Below, in pieces: positions 2,056 through 21,315 of a stretch of 25,342 nt of DNA. This stretch comes from a virus. The notes beneath the pieces were generated by a model. It had not been told where the DNA came from, searched no databases, and saw nothing but the letters and a program-made list of their open reading frames with translations. Every line of letters starts with the position of its first letter. Within the stretch, counting starts at the first letter, position 1. The stretch spans positions 1-25,342 of the IMG/VR virus record IMGVR_UViG_3300035701_001575. One strand, written 5' to 3'. The position numbers and the translations under genes were made by a program.

Positions 2056-2080
2056 TAGTATAGTTATTAAGGAGAAACAT

Positions 2081-2272: not shown

Positions 2273-2480
2273 ACTACGATGTTTCTACTGTGGTAAGCTA
2301 TATGCAACTGAAAAAAAAGCTAGAGAATGTGAAAACAACCATGATGTTGTTTTCGTTCCTATTCTAAGAGAGGACTTGAATAGACTAATTAATTTTATTG
2401 CTACTGGGGATAGAACCCTATTATCTGAAAGATTATCCAGAACTCTGTTCAGATATTTCAGAAGTGAATCACCAAAATAG
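2262..2480 (+). CDS. Small zinc-finger protein (C2HC2-spaced C-C-C-H), 72 aa
   Basis: Residues C7 and C10, then C23 and H27, form a C2H2-type zinc-binding knuckle at the N-terminus. The remaining part is an amphipathic, Arg/Leu-rich helical stretch. This layout is common in small phage proteins of unknown role, and nucleic-acid or protein binding is the usual guess. I chose ATG 2262 over the longer open frame from 2217: GGAG at 2252-2255 sits 6 nt before it, and the upstream residues look unlike a conserved N-terminus. It overlaps the previous gene by 11 nt and is followed after 9 nt by the HNH nuclease. Confidence 0.75.
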   Translation: MKNKLRCFYCGKLYATEKKARECENNHDVVFVPILREDLNRLINFIATGDRTLLSERLSRTLFRYFRSESPK

Positions 2481-2489
2481 GGAGATATT

Positions 2490-2951
2490 ATGGCATATGA
2501 AGAATATAAAAAAGAATATTATAAAAAACATAAAGATATAATTAAAAAAAGAGCTTCAGATTATCAAAAAGTTAATAAAAAAAGAGCATTAGAGTATCAA
2601 AAAGAATATCAAAAAAATAATAAAGAAAAAATAAAAGAGTATAGGAAAAAATACAGAAGAAAGTGTAAAGATAAAATAAATATGGCAGTTAGAAAATATC
2701 ATCTTGTATACAAATATGGTATTACTGTGGATGAATATAATAAAATATTTGAAAAACAAAAAGGATGTTGTGCTATCTGTGGAAAACATCAGAATGAATG
2801 TAAAAGAATTTTAGGTGTAGACCATAACCACATAACAGGAAAGGTAAGAGGATTACTTTGTACTAGTTGTAATCAACTTTTAGGTTTTGCACAAGAAGAT
2901 ATTAAAATATTAAAAAACTCAGTAGATTATTTAATTGAAAATCAACAATAA
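2490..2951 (+). CDS. HNH nuclease of the recombination endonuclease VII type, with Lys-rich N-terminus
   Basis: The C-terminal half carries a zinc-supported beta-beta-alpha-metal nuclease fold. C94 and C97 and then C124 and C127 bind zinc; D111-H112-N113-H114 gives the catalytic core, followed by the typical G-K-V-R-G-L-L-C-x-x-C-N run. This resembles T4 endonuclease VII, which resolves branched DNA, and also many free-standing phage homing-type nucleases. Residues 1-70 are a run of near-repeats rich in Lys, Tyr and Glu, probably a long helix or coiled coil that contacts DNA. The codon use is extremely A-rich, more so than its neighbours, which fits a mobile homing gene. A GGGAGA ribosome binding site precedes the ATG. 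Whether it resolves junctions or is simply a selfish nuclease cannot be told here. Confidence 0.88.
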   Translation: MAYEEYKKEYYKKHKDIIKKRASDYQKVNKKRALEYQKEYQKNNKEKIKEYRKKYRRKCKDKINMAVRKYHLVYKYGITVDEYNKIFEKQKGCCAICGKHQNECKRILGVDHNHITGKVRGLLCTSCNQLLGFAQEDIKILKNSVDYLIENQQ

Positions 2952-2985
2952 TCCGTAGCATATGATACAATTATAGGAGAAAAGT

Positions 2986-3833: not shown

Positions 3834-3842
3834 AGTATAATT

Positions 3843-3935: not shown

Positions 3936-3945
3936 GAGAATATAA

Positions 3946-4542: not shown

Positions 4543-4560
4543 TCTTGAAAGGATTATAAC

Positions 4561-6006
4561 ATGGAGATAGGACAAGGGAATGGAAAAATTTATCTAGGGA
4601 TACCTAGAGAAAGATTTTATTTTAATGAGTTTACAGACAATCGGGATAGTATCTTAGAAAGTCTGCAAAGAGATGGTTTAGCATGTGGATTTTATCAGGC
4701 TTCTGGACATAGAGTGGACAGAAATAGAGATAGAATTTGTGATGGATTTTTGAACCTTAAAAATAAACCTGAGTGGCTGCTCATGGTGGATTCAGATATG
4801 GAACATGTGCCTACAATTGGACAACGACTTGCTAAACACAAGAAACCCATTGTAGGATGTCTATATTTTCATCGTGGAGATAGCCACGACCCTCTGGTTT
4901 TTCGTAAAGCTATAACCGCTAAAGACCAGTGGGGTAGACCAAATAGACTTTGGGCACCACTCAGGGATGAAGTTTATGATTTCTTAACTAAAACTGGAGT
5001 TCCAAGATACGATGGAGCAGTAGGAATCAATGGTATGGAGGAAGAAGGATTAATAGAAGTTGATGCCATCGGAACAGGTGGAATATTAATCCATAGAAGT
5101 GTTCTTGAAACTATATCTGGGCCTTGGTTTGAATATGAAAATGGAATGATTTCTGAAGACCTAACCTTTTGTGATAAAGCAAAATATCAATATAAAATTC
5201 CAGTTTATTGTGACATGTCTACCATTAGTGGACACTATAAATTATCTGCTATGGGGCAAACACAATTTAGAGCGAAATATGAGTATCGTGGTATGCAATA
5301 TAGTAGTTATTCTGCTGAAGATGCTATAAAATGGACATCAGATTTTCTAAAGAAACCCTATAATAAGGTAAAAAAACTTTTTAATGATGGTTTTGGAAAT
5401 GAATTTGGTGAATACTGGAGAACATTGAATGTAGATACTGATGAGAAAGAACATCAAGCATACCGAGACCCACAATCTGCTTTACCATACATGGTAGAAT
5501 TACTAAAATGGAACTCTACTGTCAATCATATTGAAATGCGTAAAGAATATATGGGTATAAGAAATTCTAATGTTCTTGATTTAGGTGCAGGAGTTGGAAC
5601 ACTAACAATACAATTAGCAGTACAACATAATGATGTAATTGCAATTGAAGTAAATCCAGTTCTACAAGAATTCATAAAGTATAGATATAATATAGCAAAA
5701 AATAGTATAGAAACTTATGTTAATCCAATCACCGTTATGAGTGATGAATGGCTAACATCAGATATAAAAGATATTGAGTATGCTTTTGCATTAGATGTAT
5801 TTGAACATCTATTGCCTGATGACTTACCAAGAATACTTTATAAATTATCAGACGTAATGGTACCTGGTGGAACATTGTTCTACCATGCAACATTTGACCA
5901 ACAAGAGAATTTTCCTATGCACCACGATTACAGTAGTGTTTGGAAACAATTACTTCTTGAATCAGGATTTTACCCGCTCTCGCCCACTGTGGCACAAAGG
6001 ATGTAA
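4561..6006 (+). CDS. Two-domain enzyme: N-terminal GT-A glycosyltransferase, C-terminal SAM methyltransferase
   Basis: Residues 1-245 look like a GT-A glycosyltransferase. The sequence W-L-L-M-V-D77-S-D79 is the DxD motif that holds the metal and sugar nucleotide; a following stretch on limiting and replacing the acceptor (K-P-I-V-G-C-L-Y-F) is typical of phage glycosyltransferases of this type. Residues 330-481 are a class I methyltransferase, with V338-L-D-L-G-A-G-V-G as the SAM-binding loop and an L-D-V-F-E-H motif further on. A linker of about 80 residues joins the two. A single protein may thus add a sugar and methylate it. The gene has AAAGGA before its ATG and is followed after 2 nt by the next gene. 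The target could be virion fibres, DNA or host glycans; the sugar island at 16786-21991 is the natural partner. Confidence 0.88.
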   Translation: MEIGQGNGKIYLGIPRERFYFNEFTDNRDSILESLQRDGLACGFYQASGHRVDRNRDRICDGFLNLKNKPEWLLMVDSDMEHVPTIGQRLAKHKKPIVGCLYFHRGDSHDPLVFRKAITAKDQWGRPNRLWAPLRDEVYDFLTKTGVPRYDGAVGINGMEEEGLIEVDAIGTGGILIHRSVLETISGPWFEYENGMISEDLTFCDKAKYQYKIPVYCDMSTISGHYKLSAMGQTQFRAKYEYRGMQYSSYSAEDAIKWTSDFLKKPYNKVKKLFNDGFGNEFGEYWRTLNVDTDEKEHQAYRDPQSALPYMVELLKWNSTVNHIEMRKEYMGIRNSNVLDLGAGVGTLTIQLAVQHNDVIAIEVNPVLQEFIKYRYNIAKNSIETYVNPITVMSDEWLTSDIKDIEYAFALDVFEHLLPDDLPRILYKLSDVMVPGGTLFYHATFDQQENFPMHHDYSSVWKQLLLESGFYPLSPTVAQRM

Positions 6007-6008
6007 AT

Positions 6009-6529: not shown

Positions 6530-8401
6530 ATGGCATGGTCACTTGATACCAAAAATATAGGTACTTATGGTACTACTAACCCCTGTACCTTGAATTATAC
6601 ATGTGCTGCTAATACAAGAGTACTTGTTATAGTTCTATATACAGGAGGTTCTACTGCCCGTGCTGCTGGTACTCCAACCTATAATACCACAAATAGTTTT
6701 ACTGATAGTAGTCGTGGGTCAGTTGGTTATACGGGTGGGGACGATAGAGTAGAACTTTGGTATCTAATTAATCCTCCTACTGGAAGTTCTTATTCAATAA
6801 GTGTACCTAACTCTACTGGACTTAGCATGTGTATTTCTGCTATGTCTTTTATTGAATCTGGATTTAATAATGTTATGGTATCTGGAGTAAATAGTGGTAC
6901 AGGAACTGCTGCTAATCCAACCATTAATATAGTAACTGGTTACAATAATGAATTAGTAGTAGGGGCATGTGGTCATGCCTATAGAAATGCTCCTACAGCG
7001 GGTGCAAATTATACCATAGGTAATTCATATGACGCTGGTAACTGGACATATGCAGATGAATATGACCTTGATGGTGGAGCTGCTGGTACTATAGCGGTCA
7101 ATTTTACTAACTCTGCTGATTCTTGGGGAGTAATAGGTATTGGTTTTAGAGCTATAAATTCAGCTACTAGTAGTAAAAGTGCTTATCTAAAGGGTGGAAT
7201 ACGAACTAAATATTTACCACCATCCCTTGCATTTCCTTCCATAAATCTTTCAGATGATTTTAATAGAGCTAGTCTTGGTACTACCAATTGGACAATTAAA
7301 TCAGGGTCTCCATCAATATCTAGCAATACATTAAGTTTAAATGGTGGGATAGTACAGTGGAATACTGCTTATTCTATAAATGCAGGTGGCATAGAATTTT
7401 ACTATACAGTTAAAAATCTTTCTACTACAGCGTCACATACTTATGTTGATTATGGATTAGATGGTTGGACTGGAAATACTACTTATCGTCTAACATATTA
7501 TGCTATTACTAATACTGGATGTAATGGTCTTCAAGTACAATATGGTACTTATGGTACTAGTTATAATTCTATAATTACTACATCTGCACAAACATGGGCT
7601 GATGGTATTATACCCCAAGTTGGTCTAAGACATAAAATAAATGGAGACATAGAAGTTTTTATTAATAAAGGTAGTGGTTGGGCAAGTATAGGAACTGGAA
7701 ATGATACTAGATACATTTCAACTCTTGGGAAATGGGTTATAGAAGGTAATGGGGGAGGAGTTGGTGGTTCATGGATAGATGATTTTGCTATTGGTTATAT
7801 TGGCTCTGGAAATGTTGGAGGTATGCCTGCTTATATGTCAGGGCAAGCACCTGCGGGAACTCCAGCATCTTCTTCTAAATCTTCATATACTAAAGGTTTA
7901 TTTTCATCTGCATATTCTAAATCTGCTTATCTAAAAGGCTCTTCATATGCACCAACAAACACATCCACAAGTAAATCTGCCTACTTAAAAGGTGTTGGTG
8001 AAAATATAAATCCAGATGCAGATGTAACAGTGGGGTCTTGGGTAGATGAAGACGGTCATACAACTCTTTACCCATCTGTAGCAGACAGTTCAGATTCTAC
8101 TTATGTTAAATATGTTGGTGCTACAGTAGATTCATATTTTGAAGTTGCTCTATCTAATCCAGTTGCAACTGTAGTTACTGGAAATCATTTCTTTGTTTGG
8201 AGAGCATATCGTGGAGCAGAAACTACTGTGACAGTAAAATGTGAATTAAGACAGGGTGCTTCTACAACAATTGCAACTGATACCCAAGAATTAGGTACTA
8301 CTGTAACAGAATATAGAAAATATCTAACCGCAGGGGAAATAGCTACTATTAGTGATTATACCGATTTACGTTTACGGATTACCATAGTAGGGGTAGGATA
8401 A
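6530..8401 (+). CDS. Fibre-type protein 1: two beta domains, five SAYLKG repeats, shared C-terminal domain (623 aa)
   Basis: Probable virion surface protein. Residues 1-213 form a beta-sandwich of a kind common in phage and environmental surface proteins. Residue 215 starts a lone 14-residue repeat unit. Residues 238-425 look like a concanavalin/LamG-type jellyroll (starts with D-D-F-N-R, ends with W-I-D-D-F-A-I). Residues 432-488 hold four more repeat units. Residues 494-623 are a C-terminal domain (starting P-D-A-D-V, ending I-T-D-Y-T-D-L-R-L-R) that recurs in the next two proteins. No signal peptide, as expected of a phage structural protein. GGAGG lies 16 nt before the ATG. The next gene begins one base after the stop. 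LamG-like folds often bind glycans, so a receptor-binding or adhesion role is plausible, though inferred. Confidence 0.88.
   Translation: MAWSLDTKNIGTYGTTNPCTLNYTCAANTRVLVIVLYTGGSTARAAGTPTYNTTNSFTDSSRGSVGYTGGDDRVELWYLINPPTGSSYSISVPNSTGLSMCISAMSFIESGFNNVMVSGVNSGTGTAANPTINIVTGYNNELVVGACGHAYRNAPTAGANYTIGNSYDAGNWTYADEYDLDGGAAGTIAVNFTNSADSWGVIGIGFRAINSATSSKSAYLKGGIRTKYLPPSLAFPSINLSDDFNRASLGTTNWTIKSGSPSISSNTLSLNGGIVQWNTAYSINAGGIEFYYTVKNLSTTASHTYVDYGLDGWTGNTTYRLTYYAITNTGCNGLQVQYGTYGTSYNSIITTSAQTWADGIIPQVGLRHKINGDIEVFINKGSGWASIGTGNDTRYISTLGKWVIEGNGGGVGGSWIDDFAIGYIGSGNVGGMPAYMSGQAPAGTPASSSKSSYTKGLFSSAYSKSAYLKGSSYAPTNTSTSKSAYLKGVGENINPDADVTVGSWVDEDGHTTLYPSVADSSDSTYVKYVGATVDSYFEVALSNPVATVVTGNHFFVWRAYRGAETTVTVKCELRQGASTTIATDTQELGTTVTEYRKYLTAGEIATISDYTDLRLRITIVGVG
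7820..7993 (+). repeat. Short SAYLKG-type repeat cluster in fibre protein 1 (4 units; one more at 7172-7195)
   Basis: The units here are loosely spaced and degenerate (M-P-A-Y-M-S-G, S-K-S-S-Y-T-K-G, then two good S-K-S-A-Y-L-K-G copies). The spacing varies from 12 to over 20 residues, unlike the strict 14 of the larger arrays. They act as a linker between the jellyroll and the C-terminal domain. Confidence 0.85.
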
Positions 8402-8402
8402 T

Positions 8403-10763
8403 ATGACTACACCTATTTGGATAACTGGTTGGGAACACGGATATGGATGGGCTGGATATTCATCCATTTCAAACTCTTCTGGTGTAACAGCATTTGGGCC
8501 TTATTCTAATATAGCACATGGAGGAGATTATTGTCTTAGATTAAATTATTCAGCATCTCCTACAAGAATAGGTTATAGTGTACCAAGTTCTTTACATGTT
8601 ATGGTTGGTTCTTTTTATGTAAGACCTGATAATAATCCATCTTATGCTACATCAGATTATGCACTTTTTGGATTTTTAGTAGATGCTGGAACAGGCCCAA
8701 CTATATATTTTAATCATACTACTAGTAAGTTATATGCTACTAATGGTAGTGATTGTAGTGTAGCTATGACTTATCCAGATAGTAATTGGCATAGAGTTGA
8801 TTTCAAATTTAATTTTACAACTAATCCTTGTACATTAGATTTTCAAGTTGATGGGGTAGCTGCTACTCAATCAACAATAAATCAAGCAGGAGCACATTTT
8901 ACTGAAGTAGATTTTGGTGGGACTGGGCCTTTATACATTGTTTCTTTCTTCGATGATTTTATTTTAAGTTCTACATCTGGTGACTATCCAATTGGGCCTC
9001 ATAAAGTAGTTGGTCTAAAACCTAATGCTGAAGGTACTCATAACAATACCACTAATACGATGGAAGATTATAGTGGTAATGATATTGATGGTTCAACTTA
9101 TACAGCTTATGATAAGCTTGATGAAATTCCTTGGATTACAACATTAAATGATTGGATAAAACAATCCACTACAGGTACAGCAAGATATTGTGAAGTCCAG
9201 TTTACAGATATGGCAAGTGGTATAGGTGATACGGATATTATTGGGGTTGAAGCAGATTTACAATATACATCTGATGCGGCTGGTGGAAATCAAGGTGGAT
9301 GTATTATTCGTGATAGTAACGGACAAGAATCAGAAGTATATGGTAATCCAACTACTCGCCAAGACTATTCTATACCTACTATATATAACAATGAAAAATT
9401 TGCTGTAGTAACCGCACCAACTGGGGGGGGTTGGACAAAAACACATGTTAATGCCCTAAGATGTCGTTTTGGTTATTCAAATGATGTTAGCCCATCTCCT
9501 AAATGGATGGCAGTTCTATTAGAAGCAGCTTATAAAGTTTACCCCACTCCTTTTATTACAAAATTATATGATGTAGTTCCAACATTGTCTGGAACTTCTG
9601 TATCATCTTCTAAATCAGCCTATCTAAAAGGTTTATCTACTACTTCGGGGTCTAAAAGTGCTTATCTTAGGGGGGGTATTATAGCAACCCCATCTTTGAA
9701 GTCTGCATATTTGAAGGGGGGTACAGGTGTTTTATCATCTAAGTCTGCATATCTAAAAGGAAAAGCAGATAGTGTAACTTCTAAGTCCGCGTACTTGAAA
9801 GGTAGTTCAAGTGCAGTTAATTCTAAGTCTGCCTATCTAAAAGGTAAAGTACTAACGTCTTCAAGTAAATACGCATACCTAAGGGGTGGAATATTAACTT
9901 CCTCAAGTAAATACGCATACCTAAGAGGCGGTGTAGTATCAACATCATCTAAGTCCGCATACCTAAAAGGTCAAGCAAGTACTACAAGTTCAAAGTTTGC
10001 TTATATAAAGGGTCAAACTTCTACAACATCGTCTAAATTTGCTTATCTTAAAGGTTCTACAAATGTAGTATCTTCTAAAACTGCATATTTACGTGGTGGA
10101 GTTACTTCTACAACATCTAAATATGCTTTCTTACGAGGTAAGAATACAAGTATAACAAATAAATCAGCCTATACTAAAGGTAGTTCTCTTACTACCACAA
10201 GTAAGGCTGCTTATTTAAAAGGACAGTCTGCAGGACTTAGTTCTAAAACAGCATATCTAAAGGGTCTTTCAACTGGAGTAAGTTCTAAACACGCTTATTT
10301 AACTGGTGGATTGCTTATATCATCTAGTAAAGGAGTATATTTATTTGGAGATGTTACTGAGCCATTAACCCCTGATGCTGATGTTTCAGTTAATGGCTGG
10401 ATAAATGAGGTGGGGGGAGGTACATTATTCCCATCTGTAGCTGATGCACTAGATACAAATTATGCTACGTATAATTCTCCTACGGGTGGTGAATATTTTG
10501 AAGTTTCTCTTTCTACCCCTGAAGGAGACCCTGACAATTCTAATGACCATATCATAGTATGGAGGGCAGGAAAATTATCTGCTGATGGTACAGTTATTAT
10601 GAAAGTGCAGTTACGCATGGGAGGTTCATTAATTGCAGAATATTCTCATCTTATAACTCAATCATATCAGACATTTGAAGACTCTCTTTCACAAGCAGAA
10701 ATAGATTCAATAACTGATTATACTACTTTAAGTTTGCGTTTCTACGTGGTATCGGTGGCATAA
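8403..10763 (+). CDS. Fibre-type protein 2: LamG-like head, 18 SAYLKG repeats, shared C-terminal domain (786 aa)
   Basis: Probable phage fibre or adhesin. Residues 1-195 resemble a LamG/concanavalin jellyroll (strands ending in F-F-D-D-F-I-L). Residues 200-390 are a second beta domain found in phage structural proteins. Residues 403-655 hold 18 repeats of 14 residues. Residues 658-786 are the same C-terminal domain as in proteins 1 and 3. The gene starts one base after the previous stop. Codons 341-343 contain a run of eight G (9423-9430) in this AT-rich gene, and further G7 and G6 runs lie at 9670-9676, 9716-9721 and 10412-10417; these make frameshift switching possible. The array is strongly basic and Ser/Thr-rich, with almost no Asp or Glu. 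Function as a fibre is inferred from domain order and neighbours. Confidence 0.9.
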   Translation: MTTPIWITGWEHGYGWAGYSSISNSSGVTAFGPYSNIAHGGDYCLRLNYSASPTRIGYSVPSSLHVMVGSFYVRPDNNPSYATSDYALFGFLVDAGTGPTIYFNHTTSKLYATNGSDCSVAMTYPDSNWHRVDFKFNFTTNPCTLDFQVDGVAATQSTINQAGAHFTEVDFGGTGPLYIVSFFDDFILSSTSGDYPIGPHKVVGLKPNAEGTHNNTTNTMEDYSGNDIDGSTYTAYDKLDEIPWITTLNDWIKQSTTGTARYCEVQFTDMASGIGDTDIIGVEADLQYTSDAAGGNQGGCIIRDSNGQESEVYGNPTTRQDYSIPTIYNNEKFAVVTAPTGGGWTKTHVNALRCRFGYSNDVSPSPKWMAVLLEAAYKVYPTPFITKLYDVVPTLSGTSVSSSKSAYLKGLSTTSGSKSAYLRGGIIATPSLKSAYLKGGTGVLSSKSAYLKGKADSVTSKSAYLKGSSSAVNSKSAYLKGKVLTSSSKYAYLRGGILTSSSKYAYLRGGVVSTSSKSAYLKGQASTTSSKFAYIKGQTSTTSSKFAYLKGSTNVVSSKTAYLRGGVTSTTSKYAFLRGKNTSITNKSAYTKGSSLTTTSKAAYLKGQSAGLSSKTAYLKGLSTGVSSKHAYLTGGLLISSSKGVYLFGDVTEPLTPDADVSVNGWINEVGGGTLFPSVADALDTNYATYNSPTGGEYFEVSLSTPEGDPDNSNDHIIVWRAGKLSADGTVIMKVQLRMGGSLIAEYSHLITQSYQTFEDSLSQAEIDSITDYTTLSLRFYVVSVA
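9423..9430 (+). repeat. G8 homopolymer in a coding region, possible slippage switch
   Basis: Eight G in a row encode Gly-Gly-Gly at codons 341-343 of fibre protein 2, just ahead of the repeat array. Adding one G gives a TAA ten codons on from the tract's start; removing one gives a TAA about twelve codons on. The protein would then lose its whole repeat array and C-terminal domain. Runs of G this long are rare in DNA with this base composition and are classic contingency tracts in bacteria. Confidence 0.5.
9609..10367 (+). repeat. 18-copy array of a 14-residue (42-bp) repeat in fibre protein 2
   Basis: Units run in register with a period of 14 residues (one unit has 15). Consensus: S-K-S-A-Y-L-K-G-x-x-S-T-x-S. 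Gly at position 8 and Ala-Tyr at 4-5 are nearly invariant; position 2 is Lys in every unit. Most copies differ at synonymous sites. Units 6 to 8 are an exception: 20 bases at 9861 recur exactly 42 bases later at 9903, the mark of a recent unit duplication. The last unit is worn (S-K-G-V-Y-L-F-G). Confidence 0.95.
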
Positions 10764-10764
10764 T

Positions 10765-13020
10765 ATGGCTATTCAACCATCAGTTTCCTACGCAAAGTTA
10801 AAGGTTCCTAAACGTAAACACGATAAGGCAAAGGCTTATTTACGTGGTAGTACTTCTATTGTTTCTAGCAAATATGCATATCTAAAGGGTGGAACAGCAT
10901 TTATAAGTAGTAAGAGTGCATATCTAAAGGGTTCTACGCGTGGGATTAGTTCTAAATCTGCTTATCTAAGGGGTAGTACAAATGTTACTACTTCTAAATC
11001 CGCTTACTTGAATGGATATGTTCCAGTAGTAACTACAGTTGCACATGCTTACTTAAAGGGTGGGATTATATCTACCACAAGTAAATCAGCTTTTATTAAA
11101 GGTGGTATACTTGCTACTACTACTAAGGCTGCATACTTAAAAGGTTCAGCACCAGCAGTAGCTAATAAGTCAGCATATATCAAAGGTCAATCTACTACAG
11201 TAACTAACAAAGCAGCATATACAAAAGGTTCTGCATCAGCAATAAGTAATAAGTCTGCTTATCTACGTGGGGGCATCAAAGTTGTAACTAACAAAGCTGC
11301 TTACTTAAAAGGTCTTTCTACTGGGGTCAGTTCTAAATCAGCTTATTTGAGTGGTCAAGCAGGGCAAGGTGTAACATCTAAGTCAGCATATATCAGAGGT
11401 TCAATAAGTAGTGTAACTTCTAAATATGCATATATTATAGGTCAATTAACTTCTAGCACTTCTAAAGCTGCATATACAAAAGGTAAAAGTGATTGGTTAA
11501 CACAAAAACCAGCGTATACTTCTGGTAAGAATACATCAGTAACATCTAAATCTGCATACATTAAAGGACAATTAAGTACATCTGGTTCTAAATCTGCATA
11601 CATGTCTACTGATGCAAAGGTTAGTTCTTCTAAGCACGCTTACTTAATAGGTCTTCTACCAAACTCTACTGCAATTCAAGCCTATACAAGAGGTCAAGCG
11701 TTTACTGTTACAAGCAAACATGCTTATCTTGTAGGAGGGGTTGCTTCTAGTAAATCAGCATATCTAAGAGGTGGAGTAAATCCAACTACACTTGCACATG
11801 CTTATACTAGAGGTCAAAGCACAACAATAAATAATAAGCCTGCTTATATCAGAGGTTCTATATCTGTAGTAACATCTAAGAGTGCTTACCTTAAAGGTCA
11901 ATCTCAAGTCAATACACAAAAGTATGCATATCTAAATGGTAAAGATACTAGTGTATCAAGTAAACATGTATATCTATCTGGTGGTATAAAGGTAGTAACT
12001 TCCAAGTCTGCCTACATTAAAGGATTATCTTTTGGGGTGACTTCTAAATCTGCTTATCTTGCTGGTCAATCAGGACAGGGTATAACACTTGCACATGCTT
12101 ACTTGAAAGGTCAGTCTATTTCAAGTAGTAATAAATCAGCTTACTTGGTGGGTGGAATAAAAATTTCTTCAAGTAAGTATGTATATATAAAAGGTCAAGC
12201 AACTAGTAGCACATCTAAATTTGCTTATATATATGGATGGTCTAGTAATACTACAGTAATTCATGCGTATATAAAAGGACAATCTACAGGGGTCACTTCA
12301 AAGTTCGCATATTTGAGAGGGTCTTCTACAGGTTTAGCATCTAAAAATGCTTATCTACGTGGTAGTGCATCTGCAATAACTAGTAAATCTGGTTATATTA
12401 AAGGCTCTGCACCAGCAATTAGTAATAAATCTGCTTATATGCAGGGATGGTTATCAATTTCTACCAATAAGGCAGCATATTTACAAGGTAAACAATTTAC
12501 ACAAACTAGTAAATATGCATATCTAGTTGGTGGAATAAAAGTAACAACCAGCAAATATGCTTATATATGTGGGCAGGGTATAGTTACTTCCAGCAAAGCA
12601 GCATATCTAGAAGGAACTGGTCAGTTCTTAGTTCCTGTTTCTGATATTACTACTGGTAATTGGAAGAATGAATTGAATGGTTCTGAATTATATCCATCTG
12701 TAGCTGACCCAAGTGATGCTAATTATGCTTGGTACGAAAATTCATTAGTGGGTGCTTACTTTGAAGAAAGATTAACTATCCCATCTACCCCAGGCCCAGG
12801 AAATTATTATATAAAGTGGAGAGCATACAAGAAAGACGGACTACAATCCGTTACTTTGAAATGTGAAATAAAACAAGGTACTTCTGTAATTGCAACTGAT
12901 ACTCAAACTCTAACTAATAGTGTAGTTGAATATACTTATCAACTTACATCAGGAGAGATAGCTTTGATTACAGATTATACAGACTTACGTGTACGTGTAA
13001 CTATTATTCAAATAATTTAG
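10765..13020 (+). CDS. Fibre-type protein 3: 43 SAYLKG repeats and shared C-terminal domain (751 aa)
   Basis: Almost the whole protein is repeat. After a short basic start (residues 1-20) come 43 units of about 14 residues (21-623), then the shared C-terminal domain (about 625-751), which has the same landmarks as in proteins 1 and 2: Y-P-S-V-A-D, Y-F-E-E, W-R-A, a Q-G-T-S-V-I strand and I-T-D-Y-T-D-L-R-V-R. There is no N-terminal globular domain and no signal peptide. It starts one base after the previous stop. If each unit makes one rung of a beta-solenoid, the array would be about 20 nm long (43 x 0.48 nm, an estimate). Lys or Arg occupies about two positions per unit, so the rod would be highly basic. 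It probably forms a filament or stalk with the C-terminal domain at its tip. Confidence 0.9.
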   Translation: MAIQPSVSYAKLKVPKRKHDKAKAYLRGSTSIVSSKYAYLKGGTAFISSKSAYLKGSTRGISSKSAYLRGSTNVTTSKSAYLNGYVPVVTTVAHAYLKGGIISTTSKSAFIKGGILATTTKAAYLKGSAPAVANKSAYIKGQSTTVTNKAAYTKGSASAISNKSAYLRGGIKVVTNKAAYLKGLSTGVSSKSAYLSGQAGQGVTSKSAYIRGSISSVTSKYAYIIGQLTSSTSKAAYTKGKSDWLTQKPAYTSGKNTSVTSKSAYIKGQLSTSGSKSAYMSTDAKVSSSKHAYLIGLLPNSTAIQAYTRGQAFTVTSKHAYLVGGVASSKSAYLRGGVNPTTLAHAYTRGQSTTINNKPAYIRGSISVVTSKSAYLKGQSQVNTQKYAYLNGKDTSVSSKHVYLSGGIKVVTSKSAYIKGLSFGVTSKSAYLAGQSGQGITLAHAYLKGQSISSSNKSAYLVGGIKISSSKYVYIKGQATSSTSKFAYIYGWSSNTTVIHAYIKGQSTGVTSKFAYLRGSSTGLASKNAYLRGSASAITSKSGYIKGSAPAISNKSAYMQGWLSISTNKAAYLQGKQFTQTSKYAYLVGGIKVTTSKYAYICGQGIVTSSKAAYLEGTGQFLVPVSDITTGNWKNELNGSELYPSVADPSDANYAWYENSLVGAYFEERLTIPSTPGPGNYYIKWRAYKKDGLQSVTLKCEIKQGTSVIATDTQTLTNSVVEYTYQLTSGEIALITDYTDLRVRVTIIQII
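10825..12633 (+). repeat. 43-copy array of the 14-residue repeat in fibre protein 3
   Basis: Mean unit length is 14.0 residues. Most copies have S/N-K-x-A-Y-L/I-K/R-G. A second unit type replaces the Lys with a hydrophobic residue and ends in His (such as V-A-H-A-Y, L-A-H-A-Y, V-I-H-A-Y) and is found at units 6, 24, 31 and 35. Units 11-13 and 28-30 are close relatives (G-G-I-K-V-V-T, G-L-S-x-G-V, G-Q-x-G-Q-G), 17 units apart, so longer blocks have been copied. Unit 22 is short (12 residues), and unit 19 has lost its Gly (Y-M-S-T-D). Confidence 0.95.
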
Positions 13021-13030
13021 GAGAAATATT

Positions 13031-13930
13031 ATGTCACTTATTACTGGGGTAAACTATGACCCTTCTGGTGCTGTCTCAAAATCTACTGCATCTCGTTTAG
13101 TTATGACCGCATTTGATACCTCTAATCTTAGGCTAACATTCACTGCTCCAAGCAACGGCTATGTCTTATGTAGGATGCGTACCAATCTATCGGGTGCTAC
13201 TACCTTTCCAACTATTCTACTTGGTATTCTGGAAAGCACTACTGTTGTTGCACGTATAGCCCCTATGGGTGGTATGCCTGGTACGGTATTGGCTACGACT
13301 AACGTTACTCAAGAAGCCTTATTTGTTGTTCCTGATGTATCATCGGGAAGCCATACGTGGGATGCGGCTTATGGAGTAGAAATATTACTAGCTTCAACTA
13401 ATATTCATTATGGTGGACCTGATGATATAACTGCTAACAATGCTTGGGGTGGTTTCCAGTACGAGTTATGGACTTGTCCTAATATTCTAGGTGCTAAGCT
13501 ATATGACCCTGCTAGTGCTGTATCTAAAGTCACGACTTCTGCTTTAGCTATGACAGCTTTTGATACTACTAATCTACGTATCACGTTTACAGCCCCTAGT
13601 TCTGGTAATGTGTTAGTTAGAATTAGATGCCCTGTGCATGGTGCCACTACATTTCCACAAGTACTATTTGGGGTACTAGATGGCTCAACAGTTAGAGCTA
13701 GAACAGCTCCTATTGGTGGTCTAAAGACTACTGCGGTAGCCACAGCACTACTTACATTAGAAAGCGAGGCAATCGTAACAGGTCTTACTCCTAGCGGTAG
13801 TTACACATGGGATGCAGCTTACGGAGTTGAGACAGTTGTGGCTTCCACAGGTCTAAAGTATGGGGGTCCCAACAACACTACTACCGATGATGCTAGGGGT
13901 GCCATAAGTTATGAGATTTGGGCTATCTAG
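13031..13930 (+). CDS. Tandem-duplicated beta-domain virion protein (299 aa)
   Basis: The protein is two copies of one domain of about 148 residues: residues 3-149 and 152-299. Each copy has Y-D-P-S/A, a V-S-K-S/V-T start, M-T-A-F-D-T-S/T-N-L-R, G-A-T-T-F-P, W-D-A-A-Y-G-V-E and a Y-G-G-P near the end, and closes on a strand ending in Y-E-L/I-W. The copies differ enough to be an old duplication. No cysteine pairs or signal peptide are visible. Alternating hydrophobic residues point to a beta-sandwich, probably a fibre knob, decoration or receptor-binding protein. Codon use is clearly different from the repeat genes around it (more GCT, GGT, CTA, ACT and a higher share of G and C), as in the gene at 3946. 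TAGGAGAAATATT before the ATG is a strong ribosome binding site that overlaps the previous stop. Confidence 0.85.
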   Translation: MSLITGVNYDPSGAVSKSTASRLVMTAFDTSNLRLTFTAPSNGYVLCRMRTNLSGATTFPTILLGILESTTVVARIAPMGGMPGTVLATTNVTQEALFVVPDVSSGSHTWDAAYGVEILLASTNIHYGGPDDITANNAWGGFQYELWTCPNILGAKLYDPASAVSKVTTSALAMTAFDTTNLRITFTAPSSGNVLVRIRCPVHGATTFPQVLFGVLDGSTVRARTAPIGGLKTTAVATALLTLESEAIVTGLTPSGSYTWDAAYGVETVVASTGLKYGGPNNTTTDDARGAISYEIWAI

Positions 13931-13939
13931 GAGGATTAG

Positions 13940-16465
13940 ATGCCTGTTGGCGAACTTGTTCTACTTCAGCTAAATGATACGGCAGTTGCCAGTAGTAAAT
14001 CTGGCTATACTGCTGGTATTTCTACGGCAGTAACGAGTAAATCTGCCTATCTATGTGGTGGTATTATACCTACACCATCTAGTAAGGCCGCGTATCTAAA
14101 AGGTTCGTCAACAAGTGAATCAAGCAAATCAGCATATCTAAAGGGCACTAGTACTGCAATAACTAGTAATTCCGCTTATGTAAGAGGTGGAATCACTTCT
14201 ACTTCAAGCAAATCTGCTTATCTAAAAGGCAGTTCTATAGAGGTTACACAAAACTCTGCTTATTTGAAAGGAAGTACATCTGGTAATACAAACAAATCAG
14301 CCTATCTTTTAGGTGGGAGTGGTTCAGGAATAACTTCTAAATTTGCCTATTTGAAAGGTTTATCTACAACTGTTTCAAATAAATCGGCTTATGTAAAAGG
14401 TAAGAATACAGCGGTTTCAAATAAATCAGCATATATATCTGGTAAAAATACAGCAATAACTAGTAAATCCGCATACTTATCTGGACAAAGTTATGGTATT
14501 ACTAACCATCCTGCATATATACGAGGAACATCTACAGCAGTAAATAATAAATCTGCATATATGAGAGGACAGGTCACGGGCAGTACAAATAAATCTGCAT
14601 ATTTAAAAGGACAGTCTGCAAGTATATCAAGTAAATCAGCCTATCTACGTGGCAGTACTATAATAAGTACCAGTATTTCTGCATATATTCAAGGCGCTTT
14701 AGTAGGAACAGAAACATCATCTCAAGTTTCTGCATATATTCAAGGTGCTGGAGATATTGATTCTGTAGTTACTTATATTACATTTATTATCCCAGGAAAA
14801 CCTGGGAAGACAGCAGTTACAAGTGTTCATGCTTACTTATCAGGCCCAATTAGTGCTATAGGTTCTGTTCATGCATACTTAGTTGGTGGAATAGTTTCTA
14901 CTACAAGTACCCATGCCTATCTTGCTGGAATAAGTACAATCAGTAGTGCTGCTGACGCATATTTACGTGGACAAACCTTTACTGTAACTTCTAAACCAGT
15001 ATACATAAAAGGTCAAGCATTTGCAGTAATCTCTAAACCAGCTTACTTGGTTGGTGGAATAAAAATTGTAACAAGTAAAGCTGCATATCTAAGAGGACAA
15101 TCAGATAGTACTACATCTAAATCAGCTTATTTAGTGGGATGGTCTACTAGTACTTCTTCTAAGGCTGCTTATCTAAAGGGGCAATCAACAGGAATAGCTT
15201 CCATCCATGCTTACCTTGCTGGTGGAATCAAAGTAGTATCTAATAAACCAGCTTATATACGTGGTCAAATTTCTGTAACTACATCGAAAGCAGCCTATAT
15301 AGCTGGTTACGCCGCCAATGTAAGTATAGCACATGCTTATACCAAGGGTAAGGATTATAGTGTATCTAGTAAATTTGCCTACTTAGCTGGTGGTTTGAGA
15401 GTATCTATATCAAAGTCAGCTTATATATCAGGAAAAACATTTACTGTAGATAGTAAACATGCTTACTTAGTGGGCAAGATTGCCACACAATCTATAGCCC
15501 ATGCCTATATCAAAGGACAGTCTAGCAGTGTAACAAGTAAATCTGCATTTATTAGTGGCAAGAGTCTAGTTTCTTCTAGCAAATCTGCATACATATCAGG
15601 TAAAATAAGTGTATCTACTTATAAACATGCATTTATGTCTACAAATGCAGTTGTACAGACAGTTGTACATGCTTATATAGTAGGTTATTCTGCAAATAGA
15701 ACATCAGTATTAGCTTATCTACGTGGTCAAGCGTTTGGTGTAACAAGTAAACCAGCATTTATCAGTGGTATTGTACGTTCAACCAAACATGCTTACTTAG
15801 CTGGTAAAACATTAGTATCTTCTAATAAATCAGCATACTTAAAAGGTAAAGATACTGCAAGTAGTTCTAAATCTGCTTACTTAGCAGGTAAATCTTTACC
15901 AATTACATCAAAGTCAGCCTATCTACGTGGGCAATCAACTACTAGTAGCAGTAAACATGCCTACTTAGCAGGAAAAATCAGTAGTATTTCTTCAAAATCT
16001 GCGTATTTATCTGGTAAATCGAGCATTAATTCTACAAAAAGTGCTTATTTATCTGGAAAAACTTTAATAAATTCAAATATTCATGCTTACCTAAATGGTG
16101 GTATAATTGTAACTAGTCAAGTGCCAGCATTTGTAGCTGGATATGCAGTTGCAAGTACCTTTATACATGCTTATGTAGTAGGATTTGCAGCTAATGTAAC
16201 TTCTGCTCATGCTTACATGTATGGTGTAGTAGGAGTAAAAAGTTCTGCACACGCTTATCTAGCAGGTACAGTTCCACATGTAATCCATAAGATAGAATGT
16301 AAGACAGTAATAAATACCAAGATACAATTTAGAACTGTTATAAATAAAGAAATAAAATTCAATACAACAATTGCCACACATGCAGCATTTATTACAAGAG
16401 TAGATACAACTGTAGATGAAGTGGTTAATATAAATTCAAAAATAAAAAGGATTGTAAAAATATGA
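13940..16465 (+). CDS. Fibre-type protein 4: 53 SAYLKG repeats with a different C-terminal tail (841 aa)
   Basis: Nearly all repeat. Residues 19-782 hold about 53 units, interrupted near residue 270 by a non-repeat segment of about 20 residues containing P-G-K-P-G-K-T that separates an N-terminal arm (units 1-18) from a C-terminal arm (units 19-53). The last 55 residues do not match the shared C-terminal domain of proteins 1-3. They carry about four copies of a 10-residue motif (K-I-x-F/C-K/R-T-V-I-N-x). The N-terminal 18 residues are a short leader without a signal peptide. A strong AGGAGG site precedes the ATG, and the last four bases overlap the start of the next gene (ATGA). Units of the His type dominate the end of the array. 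Fibre, stalk or surface layer function is inferred from repeats and neighbours. Confidence 0.9.
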   Translation: MPVGELVLLQLNDTAVASSKSGYTAGISTAVTSKSAYLCGGIIPTPSSKAAYLKGSSTSESSKSAYLKGTSTAITSNSAYVRGGITSTSSKSAYLKGSSIEVTQNSAYLKGSTSGNTNKSAYLLGGSGSGITSKFAYLKGLSTTVSNKSAYVKGKNTAVSNKSAYISGKNTAITSKSAYLSGQSYGITNHPAYIRGTSTAVNNKSAYMRGQVTGSTNKSAYLKGQSASISSKSAYLRGSTIISTSISAYIQGALVGTETSSQVSAYIQGAGDIDSVVTYITFIIPGKPGKTAVTSVHAYLSGPISAIGSVHAYLVGGIVSTTSTHAYLAGISTISSAADAYLRGQTFTVTSKPVYIKGQAFAVISKPAYLVGGIKIVTSKAAYLRGQSDSTTSKSAYLVGWSTSTSSKAAYLKGQSTGIASIHAYLAGGIKVVSNKPAYIRGQISVTTSKAAYIAGYAANVSIAHAYTKGKDYSVSSKFAYLAGGLRVSISKSAYISGKTFTVDSKHAYLVGKIATQSIAHAYIKGQSSSVTSKSAFISGKSLVSSSKSAYISGKISVSTYKHAFMSTNAVVQTVVHAYIVGYSANRTSVLAYLRGQAFGVTSKPAFISGIVRSTKHAYLAGKTLVSSNKSAYLKGKDTASSSKSAYLAGKSLPITSKSAYLRGQSTTSSSKHAYLAGKISSISSKSAYLSGKSSINSTKSAYLSGKTLINSNIHAYLNGGIIVTSQVPAFVAGYAVASTFIHAYVVGFAANVTSAHAYMYGVVGVKSSAHAYLAGTVPHVIHKIECKTVINTKIQFRTVINKEIKFNTTIATHAAFITRVDTTVDEVVNINSKIKRIVKI
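13994..16285 (+). repeat. 53-copy array of the 14-residue repeat in fibre protein 4
   Basis: Longest array in the window. The Lys at position 2 is replaced more often here than in proteins 2 and 3, especially after unit 17, and H-A-Y is common there (units 19, 20, 21, 28, 31, 35, 39, 49, 51, 52, 53). Units 24-28 match units 32-36 of protein 3 in type and order (G-G-I-K, G-Q-x-S-T, G-W-S, G-Q-S-T-G), and units 38-42 match protein 3 units 19-23, including the odd Y/F-M-S-T break and a shortened unit. DNA copies are scrambled at synonymous sites. Confidence 0.95.
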
Positions 16466-16785: not shown

Positions 16786-18042
16786 ATGGATTACACGGTG
16801 CAAGAATCATGCAGGATTTGTAAAGGAAGTTTGAAAAATGTTTTTAGTTTAGGAGATATATATCCATCTGGATTTGTAGATAAGACTGAAGGAAAACCAA
16901 TTCCACTATCTCTGGTAGAATGTGAAAATTGTCATCTTGTTCAAGAGAAATATAATGTTCCGCTAGATAATATGTATAGAACTTATTTCTATCAGTCCGC
17001 TATCAATCCATCAATGGTATCATCTCTACAAGAGATTGTTACAGAAATTGAAAGTACAGTAGAAATAAAGGATGATGATGTATTAGTAGACATTGGGTGT
17101 AATGATGGTACATTATTTACTCTGTATAAAAACCAAAATTCATTAAAGGTTGGATTTGACCCTGCCTTGAACTTAGCAGATAAAGCTAAATCTCATTGTG
17201 ATTTCTTTATCAATGATTACTTTCAAGACAATTATCCTGTTACGTTGGGAAAGGCTAAAGTTATTACAGCCATAGCTATGTTCTATGACTTACCAGACCC
17301 AAATAAGTTCATGGATGATATAGATAAAATCATAGCAGATGATGGAATTTTTGTTGTTCAATTTACAGATTTAGCATCTATGCTGAAAATTAATGCCTTT
17401 GATAATATCTGTCATGAACATCTAGAGTATTATAAATTAGCAGATATAGTAGATTTATTCTATAAGCATAACCTTACTGTTTTTAGAGTATCTTATAATC
17501 AAGTAAATGGTGGAAGTATTAGAATATTTGCTAGTAAACTTTCTACATTTCCAATTGAAAAAAGTGTTACACCATCTATAATGGGTGAAAGAATTTATCT
17601 AGATAGTGCTGAGGGTTCTATGAAGGCATTTTCAGCTAGAATAAAGAATGTAAAACATATTGTTTTAGAATTTCTACAAAGAAGCAGAGATGGAGGACTT
17701 GTAATATATGGATTGGGAGCATCAACAAAGGGGAATGTAGTATTGCAATATTTTGGAATAAATAAAAATCTACTTAAAGCAATAGGAGAATTAAATAAAG
17801 ATAAGTTTGGCAAAGTTACGGTAGGAACTGAAATTCCAATAATTTCAGAAGAAGATGTTTTTAAAGAATATCCAGATTTACTGCTTCTATTGCCCTGGCA
17901 CTTTCTTGATACTTTTATAAATAAAAATATAAAGTTTTTAATGGATGGAGGTGCTTTTATAGTTACTATGCCCCTACCTATGATATATTATATGGAAAAA
18001 GATAAAATAAAAGCAACTCCTTTAGAGGAAGTACTGCCATGA
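16786..18042 (+). CDS. Sugar C-methyltransferase, zinc-binding N-terminus (TylC3/NovU-like)
   Basis: SAM-dependent enzyme that puts a methyl group on carbon of an NDP-keto-sugar, the type that makes branched sugars. Three parts are visible: a zinc knuckle with C9, C12, C46 and C49; a Rossmann core with D102-I-G-C-N-D-G as SAM loop and the H210-E-H212 motif followed by Y-Y that marks this family; and a C-terminal domain (about 270-418) with G-L-G-A-S-T-K-G-N. Length (418) fits full-length members. It starts the sugar island; its last four bases overlap the next ATG. It needs a keto-sugar nucleotide made elsewhere, probably by the host, because no NDP-sugar dehydratase or epimerase is seen in this window. 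Best family call of the island. Confidence 0.92.
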   Translation: MDYTVQESCRICKGSLKNVFSLGDIYPSGFVDKTEGKPIPLSLVECENCHLVQEKYNVPLDNMYRTYFYQSAINPSMVSSLQEIVTEIESTVEIKDDDVLVDIGCNDGTLFTLYKNQNSLKVGFDPALNLADKAKSHCDFFINDYFQDNYPVTLGKAKVITAIAMFYDLPDPNKFMDDIDKIIADDGIFVVQFTDLASMLKINAFDNICHEHLEYYKLADIVDLFYKHNLTVFRVSYNQVNGGSIRIFASKLSTFPIEKSVTPSIMGERIYLDSAEGSMKAFSARIKNVKHIVLEFLQRSRDGGLVIYGLGASTKGNVVLQYFGINKNLLKAIGELNKDKFGKVTVGTEIPIISEEDVFKEYPDLLLLLPWHFLDTFINKNIKFLMDGGAFIVTMPLPMIYYMEKDKIKATPLEEVLP

Positions 18043-18824
18043 AAAAGAATTTAATTGGAAAAAAGTTTGGAAAATTAAAAGTAATAGCCTACCACCATAC
18101 TGACAAAGAACATAAAAGATGTTGGCTGTGTGAATGTGACTGTGGTAATACTGTAATCGTACCTACTGGTAGCTTGTCTTCAGGAAATACTAAAGGTTGT
18201 GGATGTATGCGTGGAAAAAATTTAAATAAGAATAGAAAATACTACAATGATTTTGATACAGCAACTTCTATAATATATAATGGATATAAAATGAAAGCAA
18301 AATTACGTAGTATAGATTTTAATCTTAATAAAGAAGATTTTATTAAACTAATAAAAGGAAGTTGTTGTTACTGTGGTATAGAATCATCACATTCTTTTAA
18401 TTATTATAAAGGAAGATTTTTTGAAACTCCTATACTTTGGAATGGTATAGATAGAGTTGATAATAAAAAAGGATATTCAGTTGAAAATTGTGTAAGTTGT
18501 TGTGAAATATGTAATAGGTCTAAAAGCGATTTAACAACAGAACAATTTTTAACTTGGGTGAAAAGAATTTATATTACCCAGTATCGTAAAGTTACTGACA
18601 GAACTCCTGGAGAATTAATAGATGCCTTGATTACCGCAGATATAAAATGTTTTCTGGCACAAGAAAATATGTTAAAAGAAAATCTTTCTGATGAAGAACG
18701 TGTAATTGCTGGTGAAAAATCACAACGTTATAATGCAAAAAGAAATTCTTTAATATCTTCTATAAACAAAGTATTAGATTATCCAGATGATAGAATCATA
18801 GAAAAGACATACGAAAACAAATGA
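18039..18824 (+). CDS. HNH nuclease fused to a short helical domain typical of sugar gene clusters (261 aa)
   Basis: Residues 1-65 hold a C-E-C-D-C-G-N motif and a C-G-C-M close, a DNA-binding module often found with homing HNH nucleases. Residues 105-165 are the nuclease, with C-Y-C-G, G-I-D-R-V-D-N-K-K-G-Y and C-C-x-x-C-N-R-S-K. Residues about 188-261 (G-E-L-I-D-A-L-I-T-A-D-I-K, later N-A-K-R-N-x-L-I) resemble, from memory, a small helical protein found beside glycosyltransferases in phages and bacteria (DUF4254-like). There is no separate start codon or stop between the parts, so a homing nuclease may have landed at the head of a sugar-cluster gene and fused with it. ATGA overlaps on both sides place it inside the operon. 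Confidence 0.85.
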   Translation: MKKNLIGKKFGKLKVIAYHHTDKEHKRCWLCECDCGNTVIVPTGSLSSGNTKGCGCMRGKNLNKNRKYYNDFDTATSIIYNGYKMKAKLRSIDFNLNKEDFIKLIKGSCCYCGIESSHSFNYYKGRFFETPILWNGIDRVDNKKGYSVENCVSCCEICNRSKSDLTTEQFLTWVKRIYITQYRKVTDRTPGELIDALITADIKCFLAQENMLKENLSDEERVIAGEKSQRYNAKRNSLISSINKVLDYPDDRIIEKTYENK

Positions 18825-19414
18825 CATACTATGGACAGTTTGACCCTCCTACAGATAAAATTATAGAAGAGTATTTTCCTAACCAGATTGTAGGGATAGC
18901 TGTTGAGGTAGGAGCAGCACACGGGATAGCAGCATCAAACACATTACATTTTGAACAAAAAGGTTGGATATGTTTGTGCATAGAACCTAATCCTAATCTG
19001 TTTGAACAATTAAAAAGAAACAGAACCTTTGCTTTGAATTTTGCTGTATCAGATTTCAATGCAGACGGTATAAATTTTGATATATGTACTGGAGATGAGA
19101 CAGCCGTAAGTGCTTTGTATCTAGATAATGAATTAATGAAACAAAATAATGTCTCTAAAAAATATACAATTAAAGTAAACGTAAGAACATTAGATTTTTG
19201 TCTAAAAGATTTCCCATCTCCCTTAGATTTTGTATCTATAGATACAGAAGGAACAGAATTAGATGTATTAAAAGGATTTAATATTGAAGAATGTCAACCT
19301 AAATTATTAGTTATTGAGAATAATTTTAATAACCCAAATATAGAAGAATATTTAAAGAATTATGGATATAGAAAGGATAGGAGACATGTTATCAACGATT
19401 TCTTTACCAGATAA
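18821..19414 (+). CDS. FkbM-family methyltransferase, copy 1
   Basis: SAM-dependent methyltransferase of the FkbM type, normally O-methylating hydroxyls on sugars or lipids. The SAM loop is V-E-V-G-A-A-H-G and the acidic residue after it is E in C-I-E-P-N-P-N. The signature S-I-D-T-E-G-T-E-L-D-V-L-K-G-F is complete, with the short C-terminal helix that follows. At 197 residues it is a compact, full-length member. The start overlaps the previous stop (ATGA) and its end overlaps the next gene. Likely role: methyl cap on a sugar added by a neighbouring glycosyltransferase, which would protect or end a glycan chain. Confidence 0.9.
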   Translation: MTYYGQFDPPTDKIIEEYFPNQIVGIAVEVGAAHGIAASNTLHFEQKGWICLCIEPNPNLFEQLKRNRTFALNFAVSDFNADGINFDICTGDETAVSALYLDNELMKQNNVSKKYTIKVNVRTLDFCLKDFPSPLDFVSIDTEGTELDVLKGFNIEECQPKLLVIENNFNNPNIEEYLKNYGYRKDRRHVINDFFTR

Positions 19415-19985
19415 TTATTTTACAGAAGGTGCTGCTGAATATCTTTTAACTTTATTTGATAAGGATTTTAAAGGTATTATGATAGATATAGGTGCTCATA
19501 GCAACCATAGAAGTAATAGTTTACTTTTAGAGGTAAATGGGTGGGAAGTATTTTGTGTAGAACCTAACCCACACTGCATAAATAAGTTAATAGATAGAAA
19601 ACATTTTCATCAATTAGCTATTGGTGCAGAAAATAAAGATAACGTAGATTTTTATATATATCATGAAGAAGATGAACAATCGTGGACAGGACTTACTAAT
19701 TATATAGGTATATCTATAAAAGAAATAGTGAAAGTGAAAATGGTAACTTTAGATTACTTCTTAGAATCAGTAGCAAAAGTAGACCATGTGGATATACTAT
19801 CTATAGATGTAGAGGGGTGGGAAATGGAAGTGCTGAAAGGAATAGACTTAGATAGATGGAAGGTTAAATCAATCTGTATAGAAAATTGGGAAGATATTGG
19901 AGAACAAAATAATTATCTAATAGATAAAGGATATAAAAAACTTAATAGAATAATATTTAATAATTTTTGGATAAAAGATTTATGA
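19386..19985 (+). CDS. FkbM-family methyltransferase, copy 2
   Basis: Second FkbM-type enzyme, paralogous to its neighbour: I-D-I-G-A-H-S-N in the SAM loop, C-V-E-P-N-P-H as acidic residue region, and S-I-D-V-E-G-W-E-M-E-V-L-K-G-I as signature. I took ATG 19386 as the start because AAAGG sits 9 nt upstream and the resulting N-terminus matches copy 1; ATG 19362, 24 bases earlier in the same frame, has no clear ribosome site but cannot be excluded. Either way the gene overlaps copy 1 in another frame. It ends in an ATGA overlap with the next gene. The pair is divergent enough to act on different positions or sugars. Confidence 0.88.
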   Translation: MLSTISLPDNYFTEGAAEYLLTLFDKDFKGIMIDIGAHSNHRSNSLLLEVNGWEVFCVEPNPHCINKLIDRKHFHQLAIGAENKDNVDFYIYHEEDEQSWTGLTNYIGISIKEIVKVKMVTLDYFLESVAKVDHVDILSIDVEGWEMEVLKGIDLDRWKVKSICIENWEDIGEQNNYLIDKGYKKLNRIIFNNFWIKDL

Positions 19986-20557
19986 AAGTAACCTTTATAA
20001 CACCGTTGACAAGACCATATAATATAAAACTAATGCACAATTCCATTATGGCAAGTGTAACTAAAGATGTTGAATGGGATTGGATTATAGTTGAAGATGG
20101 AGATTCACTACTTGAGGCTGGAGATTGTCTTTGTACAAAATACATATCATACCCAAGTGATGACAAAGGTTTATCAGGGAATCCACAAAGAAATGTAGCA
20201 CTAGACCATGTAGACTGTGATAGATATGTTTACTTTTTAGACGATGATAATATTGTGCACTCAAATTTGTTTATTCGTGCTACTAAGATATTACAAAACT
20301 CTAATAAAGCGTTAATCTTTTCGCAGGTACACAAGATAGGAATACCAAGACTAATTCCACAGCCAGATAGAATAGTTCCATGTCATATTGATACTGCTCA
20401 ATTTCTAATTCCAAGAGATTTAATAGGAGATTTAAAATGGGAAAATTTCAATTACTGCGCCGATGGTGCTTTTTTTAGTACTCTATATAATCAACATAAA
20501 GATAGATTTATAATAACTAAAGAAATGCTTTGTTACTACAATTATCTTAGACAATGA
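19982..20557 (+). CDS. Glycosyltransferase, family 2-like (GT-A), 191 aa
   Basis: GT-A fold enzyme that adds a sugar from a nucleotide donor. Visible are an N-terminal T-P-L-T-R start, W-I-I-V-E-D-G-D, a G-N-P-Q-R-N segment like other family 2 members, and Y-F-L-D87-D88-D89 as the DxD metal-binding motif. The enzyme is short and lacks membrane segments, so it is cytoplasmic. I chose ATG 19982 (M-K-V-T-F-I) rather than 19967 since it makes the standard ATGA overlap with the previous stop and matches the family start. The end overlaps the next ATG in the same way. Acceptor unknown; fibre proteins or host glycans are the candidates. Confidence 0.88.
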   Translation: MKVTFITPLTRPYNIKLMHNSIMASVTKDVEWDWIIVEDGDSLLEAGDCLCTKYISYPSDDKGLSGNPQRNVALDHVDCDRYVYFLDDDNIVHSNLFIRATKILQNSNKALIFSQVHKIGIPRLIPQPDRIVPCHIDTAQFLIPRDLIGDLKWENFNYCADGAFFSTLYNQHKDRFIITKEMLCYYNYLRQ

Positions 20558-21315
20558 TACTAAGTCTTTGGGGTTCCCTTGGCGACCATATAATTATGAC
20601 AGGTATACCAGAGGCTTATTTTCATATCTTTGGTGAAAAAACTAAAATAAGAAATAAACTTAGTGAATTATTTTGGAATAATAATCCATATGTAACAGAA
20701 GAAAATATAGGGAAAGATTGTTATTTCAATGCTAATACTGTAGATACTTACAAATTTTATTATCCACAAAGAGTATTTTATGATATTACAGGACTATGGA
20801 TAGATAGAGAAGATGTCCAACCTAATTTATATATACCTAGAAAAACTGTTCCTAAACTTGTAATAATGAATGACCAAGCAGGATGGCCTTCTAGAAGAGG
20901 TTATAGATATCTTACTAACTTATCCAGACGATTAATGGAGAGTGGATATACAGTAGTATATTTAAGAAATAATGGATTTAAAGATTGTACAAATAAAATA
21001 TCAGCAGGACAAATATGGAGTTCTCATTACATATTAGAAGATTTACCAATGCCACAGTTGCTAGATAAGATGTCCGAAGCAGCTCTTTACATTGGGTATG
21101 ATAGTGGTCTATCGGCATTGGCAGGAGCATTAAAGATACCATACATAACTTTTTATGGTAGTATACCAGCAATAAATACAACACATTTTACCTGTATCTA
21201 TGCCATAGATGAATGTGACCACTGTTGTACAGACCAATGCAATAAAAATTGTTTAACCTTGTATGAGGATAAGACAGACGAAATAATGGAAAGGATTAAA
21301 GCACATGGAATTTAA
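20554..21315 (+). CDS. GT9/heptosyltransferase-like glycosyltransferase
   Basis: GT-B type enzyme like heptosyltransferases. The N-terminal G-S-L-G-D-H-I-I loop, a middle segment with Q-A-G-W-P, and a C-terminal G-Y-D-S-G-L-S-A-L-A-G-A-L-K-I-P-Y-I-T-F-Y-G-S stretch (seen in two parts) fit the family. At 253 residues it is shorter than bacterial heptosyltransferases, and the region between the two domains is compact. A Cys-rich tail (D-H-C-C, D-Q-C, N-C) near the C-terminus is a typical family feature too. Start overlaps the previous gene (ATGA), and its end overlaps the next by 11 nt. Heptose itself is not implied; the donor sugar is unknown. Confidence 0.85.
   Translation: MILSLWGSLGDHIIMTGIPEAYFHIFGEKTKIRNKLSELFWNNNPYVTEENIGKDCYFNANTVDTYKFYYPQRVFYDITGLWIDREDVQPNLYIPRKTVPKLVIMNDQAGWPSRRGYRYLTNLSRRLMESGYTVVYLRNNGFKDCTNKISAGQIWSSHYILEDLPMPQLLDKMSEAALYIGYDSGLSALAGALKIPYITFYGSIPAINTTHFTCIYAIDECDHCCTDQCNKNCLTLYEDKTDEIMERIKAHGI

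Follow-up and report, generated by a model that had tools for sequence, protein, structure and literature searches.

Poly-G phase variation of receptor-binding proteins is already known in phages. In the Fletchervirus phages of Campylobacter, receptor-binding proteins are phase-variable through hypermutable poly-G tracts (Sorensen et al., 2021, Cell Rep. 35:109214), according to the passages that cite this work in PMC10579305, PMC11868660 and PMC10877375. Table 1 of PMC4235727 classes runs of 6G–8G as "mutable" (1e-7 to 1e-5 per division), a result of genome composition and not of selection for mutability, and runs of >7G as "hypermutable" (1e-5 to 1e-2). PhasomeIt (PMC6321876) uses a cut-off of at least 7 for poly-G/C tracts to define candidate loci in Campylobacter, and the same paper points out that some tracts above this cut-off mutate too rarely for switching. 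The phage CP21 paper was considered as a further precedent for a tract in a fibre gene but was set aside, as it concerns 454 errors and DNA repeat units.

As a control we used the Fletchervirus NCTC12673 (135 kb, 26% G+C), which has exactly two G/C runs of at least six, with lengths of 9 and 11. At the 9-run, one frame is open for 65 codons upstream and reaches a stop 13 codons further on, and a different frame continues downstream for over 200 codons without a stop. At the 11-run, too, one frame has no stop for over 200 codons downstream.

The DNA analysed here, referred to as the window, is the whole IMG/VR record IMGVR_UViG_3300035701_001575 (25,342 bases, linear, 34% G+C). It is possibly a fragment, and contains a terminase gene and a portal gene. 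The original prediction was that a run of eight G (G8) in the second of four fibre-like genes would switch the encoded protein on and off by slippage. The position given for G8 was exact, as were those of a G7 and two G6 runs, and all four lie in the same ORF (Table 1). A scan of the window also bore out the claim that fibre-like genes 3 and 4 have no G run of this length. The 25,342 bases contain no further run of at least six G and none of six or more C, and homopolymers as long as G8 elsewhere in the window include two A8 runs.

The G8 lies in the context ACT GGG GGG GGT TGG, encoding Thr-Gly-Gly-Gly-Trp (residues 340–344). Gain or loss of one G was expected to bring a stop soon afterwards, and this arithmetic is right: the +1 product ends in GGGLDKNTC and the −1 product in GGVGQKHMLMP. 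Both truncations end before the repeat array, so that the entire array and the C-terminal domain are lost either way, as had been proposed. Slips at the other three runs truncate the protein as well, giving products of 426–450 and 678–680 residues. Across gene 2, a stop is met after a median of 8 codons in one of the shifted frames and after 4 in the other. Thus, the early stops after G8 are not a special design, since off-frame stops are near throughout this AT-rich gene.

Table 1. Positions of genes and homopolymeric runs in the window.
Feature	Position	Strand	Remarks
A8 run	2311..2318		
Endonuclease VII-like gene	2490..2951		Recombination endonuclease VII-like (PF02945, E=2e-24)
A8 run	3563..3570		
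Gene for 481-residue protein	4561..6006		N-terminal part resembles phrog_1574 (unknown function); methyltransferase domain at C-terminus
Fibre-like gene 1	6530..8401	+	C-terminal domain in common with genes 2 and 3
Fibre-like gene 2	8403..10763	+	ORF of 786 aa with translation; carries G8
G8	9423..9430	+	Codons 341–343, GGG GGG GGT = Gly-Gly-Gly; +1 gives 349 aa, −1 gives 351 aa
G7	9670..9676	+	AGG GGG GGT = Arg-Gly-Gly, in repeat unit; +1/−1 gives 446/426 aa
G6	9716..9721	+	AAG GGG GGT = Lys-Gly-Gly, in repeat unit
G6	10412..10417	+	GTG GGG GGA = Val-Gly-Gly, in variable stretch of C-terminal domain
Fibre-like gene 3	10765..13020	+	Long repeat array and C-terminal domain as in gene 2; no G run of at least 6
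Gene for 299-residue protein	13031..13930		Two similar halves; 97–99% conserved in near relatives
Fibre-like gene 4	13940..16465	+	About 50 repeat units; no G run of at least 6
Sugar-modifying block	16786..21991		C-methyltransferase (PF08484), two FkbM methyltransferases, GT2 and GT9 glycosyltransferases
HNH-type endonuclease gene	18039..18824		Inside sugar-modifying block

Fibre-like protein 2 consists of an N-terminal part (residues 1–390), a repeat array (about 391–645) and a C-terminal beta domain (646–786). The array holds about 18 copies of a 13–14 residue repeat of the type SKSAYLKG, which is seen in all four fibre-like proteins, with few copies in the product of gene 1 and many in those of genes 2–4. 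The array is predicted to form a regular beta repeat (pLDDT about 75–85 for residues 450–580). The C-terminal domain, of about 140 residues, is common to proteins 1, 2 and 3 and to five proteins of the two nearest records. Its predicted model, of fair quality (pLDDT 78), gave 17 matches at E≤0.001 in BFVD, a collection of viral models, with TM values of about 0.5–0.65. They are phage proteins or entries without a name; one is annotated as a virion structural protein and another as a concanavalin-like lectin. A search of the same domain against the PDB returned nothing at E≤0.001. A single-sequence fold of the whole protein was poor (pLDDT 45, and about 30 in the N-terminal part). The whole protein matched no PHROGs or Pfam family at E≤0.001, single pieces of it gave weak matches to unrelated families only, below the family cut-offs, and residues 1–392 had no match among PDB sequences. 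A virion-type architecture of repeated beta units with a terminal domain is thus found in protein 2 and recurs in several adjacent genes. On these structural and contextual grounds it is reasonable to regard protein 2 as a virion fibre-like protein, and its repeats, its position and the common C-terminal domain suggest that it could be receptor-binding.

Proteins with the SKSAYLKG-type repeat form a family encoded at 6530–16465 of the window, at 99–5796 of IMGVR_UViG_3300035659_000477 and at 5210–9990 of IMGVR_UViG_3300035659_000020. Up to about 50 copies are present in the window proteins and more in the relatives, and the family has no counterpart in PHROGs or Pfam. Its N-terminal modules are swapped and the C-terminal beta domain is common to most members. 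The gene between fibre-like genes 3 and 4 encodes a protein with dozens of homologues in viral contigs of 33–69% G+C, and it too matched no PHROGs or Pfam family. The sugar-modifying block lies between the fibre genes and the terminase gene, and the endonuclease VII-like gene is a second endonuclease gene besides the HNH-type one.

The nearest records are 88–99% identical to the window at the DNA level outside the fibre region, and this similarity is lost within it. IMGVR_UViG_3300035659_000477 aligns from position 12603 onwards only (98.9% over 11.3 kb), with an abrupt break upstream of that position. IMGVR_UViG_3300035659_000020 aligns at 4078–6497 and again from about 11045, and the break, at 6500–11045, is equally abrupt, with different proteins in between. 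As fibre genes 1 and 2 and part or most of gene 3 are replaced, the host-recognition diversity of this lineage visibly arises via module exchange.

Residues 1–390 of protein 2 had no recognisable relative in a phage collection (tblastn) or in viral and genome contigs (back-translated scans). A comparison of the tract-bearing region with 18 related virus records, together with sensitive local searches of all loci, gave no homologue either; these searches may omit records very near the window, so near-identical strains could be missed. The exact 19-mer beside G8 had one match, in an unrelated frame, which we attribute to chance, and the degenerate pattern APxGGGWT was found in eight stretches with no recognisable relation to gene 2.

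To estimate how often such runs occur by chance, the protein was kept and the gene's own codons were shuffled among synonyms. This gave P=0.057 for a run of at least 8 and P=0.0014 for at least four runs of at least 6. When codon usage was instead pooled from 18 genes of the window, these values were 0.026 and 0.0004. An order-3 Markov model of the whole window gave P=0.27 for any G/C run of at least 8 and a mean of 4.3 G/C runs of at least 6. By this expectation the total number of runs is ordinary, but their concentration in one gene is not. On its own, G8 is unremarkable to weakly unusual. The notable part is the presence of four runs in one gene, a cluster that composition explains poorly.

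We also compared gene 2 with 76 other, non-redundant ORFs (27,810 codons) of the window and of contigs from related viruses, almost all with 31–35% G+C. In these ORFs one G run of at least 6 was observed against 4.1 expected (P=0.085), and none of at least 7. G runs of at least 6 outside gene 2 are therefore scarcer than codon shuffles predict, which hints that slippage-prone runs are usually avoided. Using this set in place of a redundant one of 141 ORFs weakened the apparent avoidance. For the four runs in gene 2, which had been singled out before it was compared with the other ORFs, the Poisson probability is 0.005, or 3e-5 with the low background of the lineage. After multiplication by 76 genes the cluster has a P of about 0.4 if the background is the codon expectation and of about 0.002 if it is the lower one of the lineage, which places it anywhere between unremarkable and notable.

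Taken together, we conclude that G8 is probably an incidental Gly3 run, mildly prone to slippage, in a gene whose use of GGG is unusual, and not an evolved switch. Gly-Gly-Gly in an intact frame, at codon 341 of 786, accounts for the whole run. GGG is the first codon in 5 of the 16 Gly-Gly pairs of gene 2, compared with 15 of 267 in the other ORFs of the lineage (Fisher p=0.003, for a comparison chosen post hoc). This excess, like the run, its codons and its truncation products, is a direct observation, and a gene-wide GGG bias at Gly-Gly pairs would explain all four runs together. The glycine-rich gene 2 would thus prefer GGG at such pairs more than its neighbours do, and this preference would have produced GGG GGG GGT and with it G8. 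Like any run of eight G it is expected to slip occasionally in replication, which would give rare products of 349–351 residues and occasional null mutants. We infer that the slippage rate is low and that selection for switching is absent; the run was probably not selected as a switch. This explanation is weakened by the four runs of at least 6, which are unlikely in one gene even given the protein and its codons (0.14%), and by the scarcity of such runs in the other ORFs.

The strongest alternative is the contingency tract of the original prediction, in which slippage at G8, and perhaps at G7, during phage replication toggles full-length fibre protein 2, giving mixed particles with and without it. 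We consider this unlikely. The loss of array and C-terminal domain upon a change of one G fits such a switch, and there is a phage precedent, as cited in passages of PMC10579305 and PMC11868660. G8 also exceeds the cut-off of at least 7 for Campylobacter candidates (PMC6321876). As it falls on the border of the mutable and hypermutable classes, however, its length alone decides nothing, and this border-line length, the mid-gene position, the intact frame and the coding role as Gly3 all lean against a switch. The concentration of G runs of at least 6 in gene 2 and their scarcity in the rest of the lineage keep the idea alive, but the shorter runs nearby look like a local GGG-codon bias, and the cluster is unlike the two isolated tracts (9 and 11) of NCTC12673. 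Moreover, the two nearest relatives have other modules in place of the entire gene, a different route to diversity.

Less probable again, and in our view quite doubtful, is that recent origin or relaxed selection of gene 2 left the G runs behind as a by-product, the gene being a newly acquired or dispensable module from which selection has yet to remove such slippage-prone runs. Among the relatives compared, this record alone has the N-terminal part, and G runs are scarcer than expected in the other ORFs of the lineage, as this explanation would have it. However, the array holds two of the four runs and the C-terminal domain a third, and both regions are typical of the lineage; with 36% GC, gene 2 also matches fibre genes 1 and 3 in composition, and its frame is intact.

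We find it very improbable that programmed or transcriptional slippage at G8 yields full-length protein and proteins of 349–351 residues in a fixed ratio from unchanged DNA. Polymerases are able to slip on a run of eight G, and the in-frame G GGG GGT has the form of a −1 slippery heptamer, but no stable structure is predicted downstream of G8 (z=−0.48) and the shifted frames close after 7–9 codons without a conserved extension. Just as improbable is that the length of G8 stems from an error of sequencing or assembly: poly-G/C tracts of at least 8 are error-prone in short-read data (PMC4235727) and the sequence is a single contig, but G8 keeps the 786-codon frame open, whereas a random indel would break the frame in two thirds of cases.

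If G8 does switch, the phase variation of host-recognition proteins by poly-G tracts extends beyond Campylobacter phages, and might serve phages with AT-rich genomes in general for bet-hedging. The broader claim, that several G tracts in one gene make a fibre protein phase-variable in a lineage of phages unrelated to those of Campylobacter, in a region that is also exchanged as modules between close relatives, appears rather improbable to us. In a glycine-rich repeat gene, a run of G is on its own weak evidence for a switch.

The resemblance to the Fletchervirus phages, as far as the citing passages describe them, lies in a G homopolymer in a putative host-recognition gene of an AT-rich genome, where a change of one base truncates the protein. 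The difference is that switching has been demonstrated there with a plaque phenotype, whereas the gene described here is known from one contig sequence. In NCTC12673 the two tracts, 9 and 11 long, stand isolated; the window has a G8 in the middle of a gene with an intact frame, accompanied by G7, G6 and G6 nearby. With the contingency loci of Campylobacter jejuni the window has in common that G8 and G7 pass the cut-off of at least 7, but this cut-off was made for a host without mismatch repair and with documented high tract mutability. Finally, the runs of G8, G7, G6 and G6 resemble the mutable 6G–8G class of PMC4235727 in length and in being in frame and explicable by composition and codon use, and differ from it in being concentrated in one gene beyond the codon-shuffled expectation.
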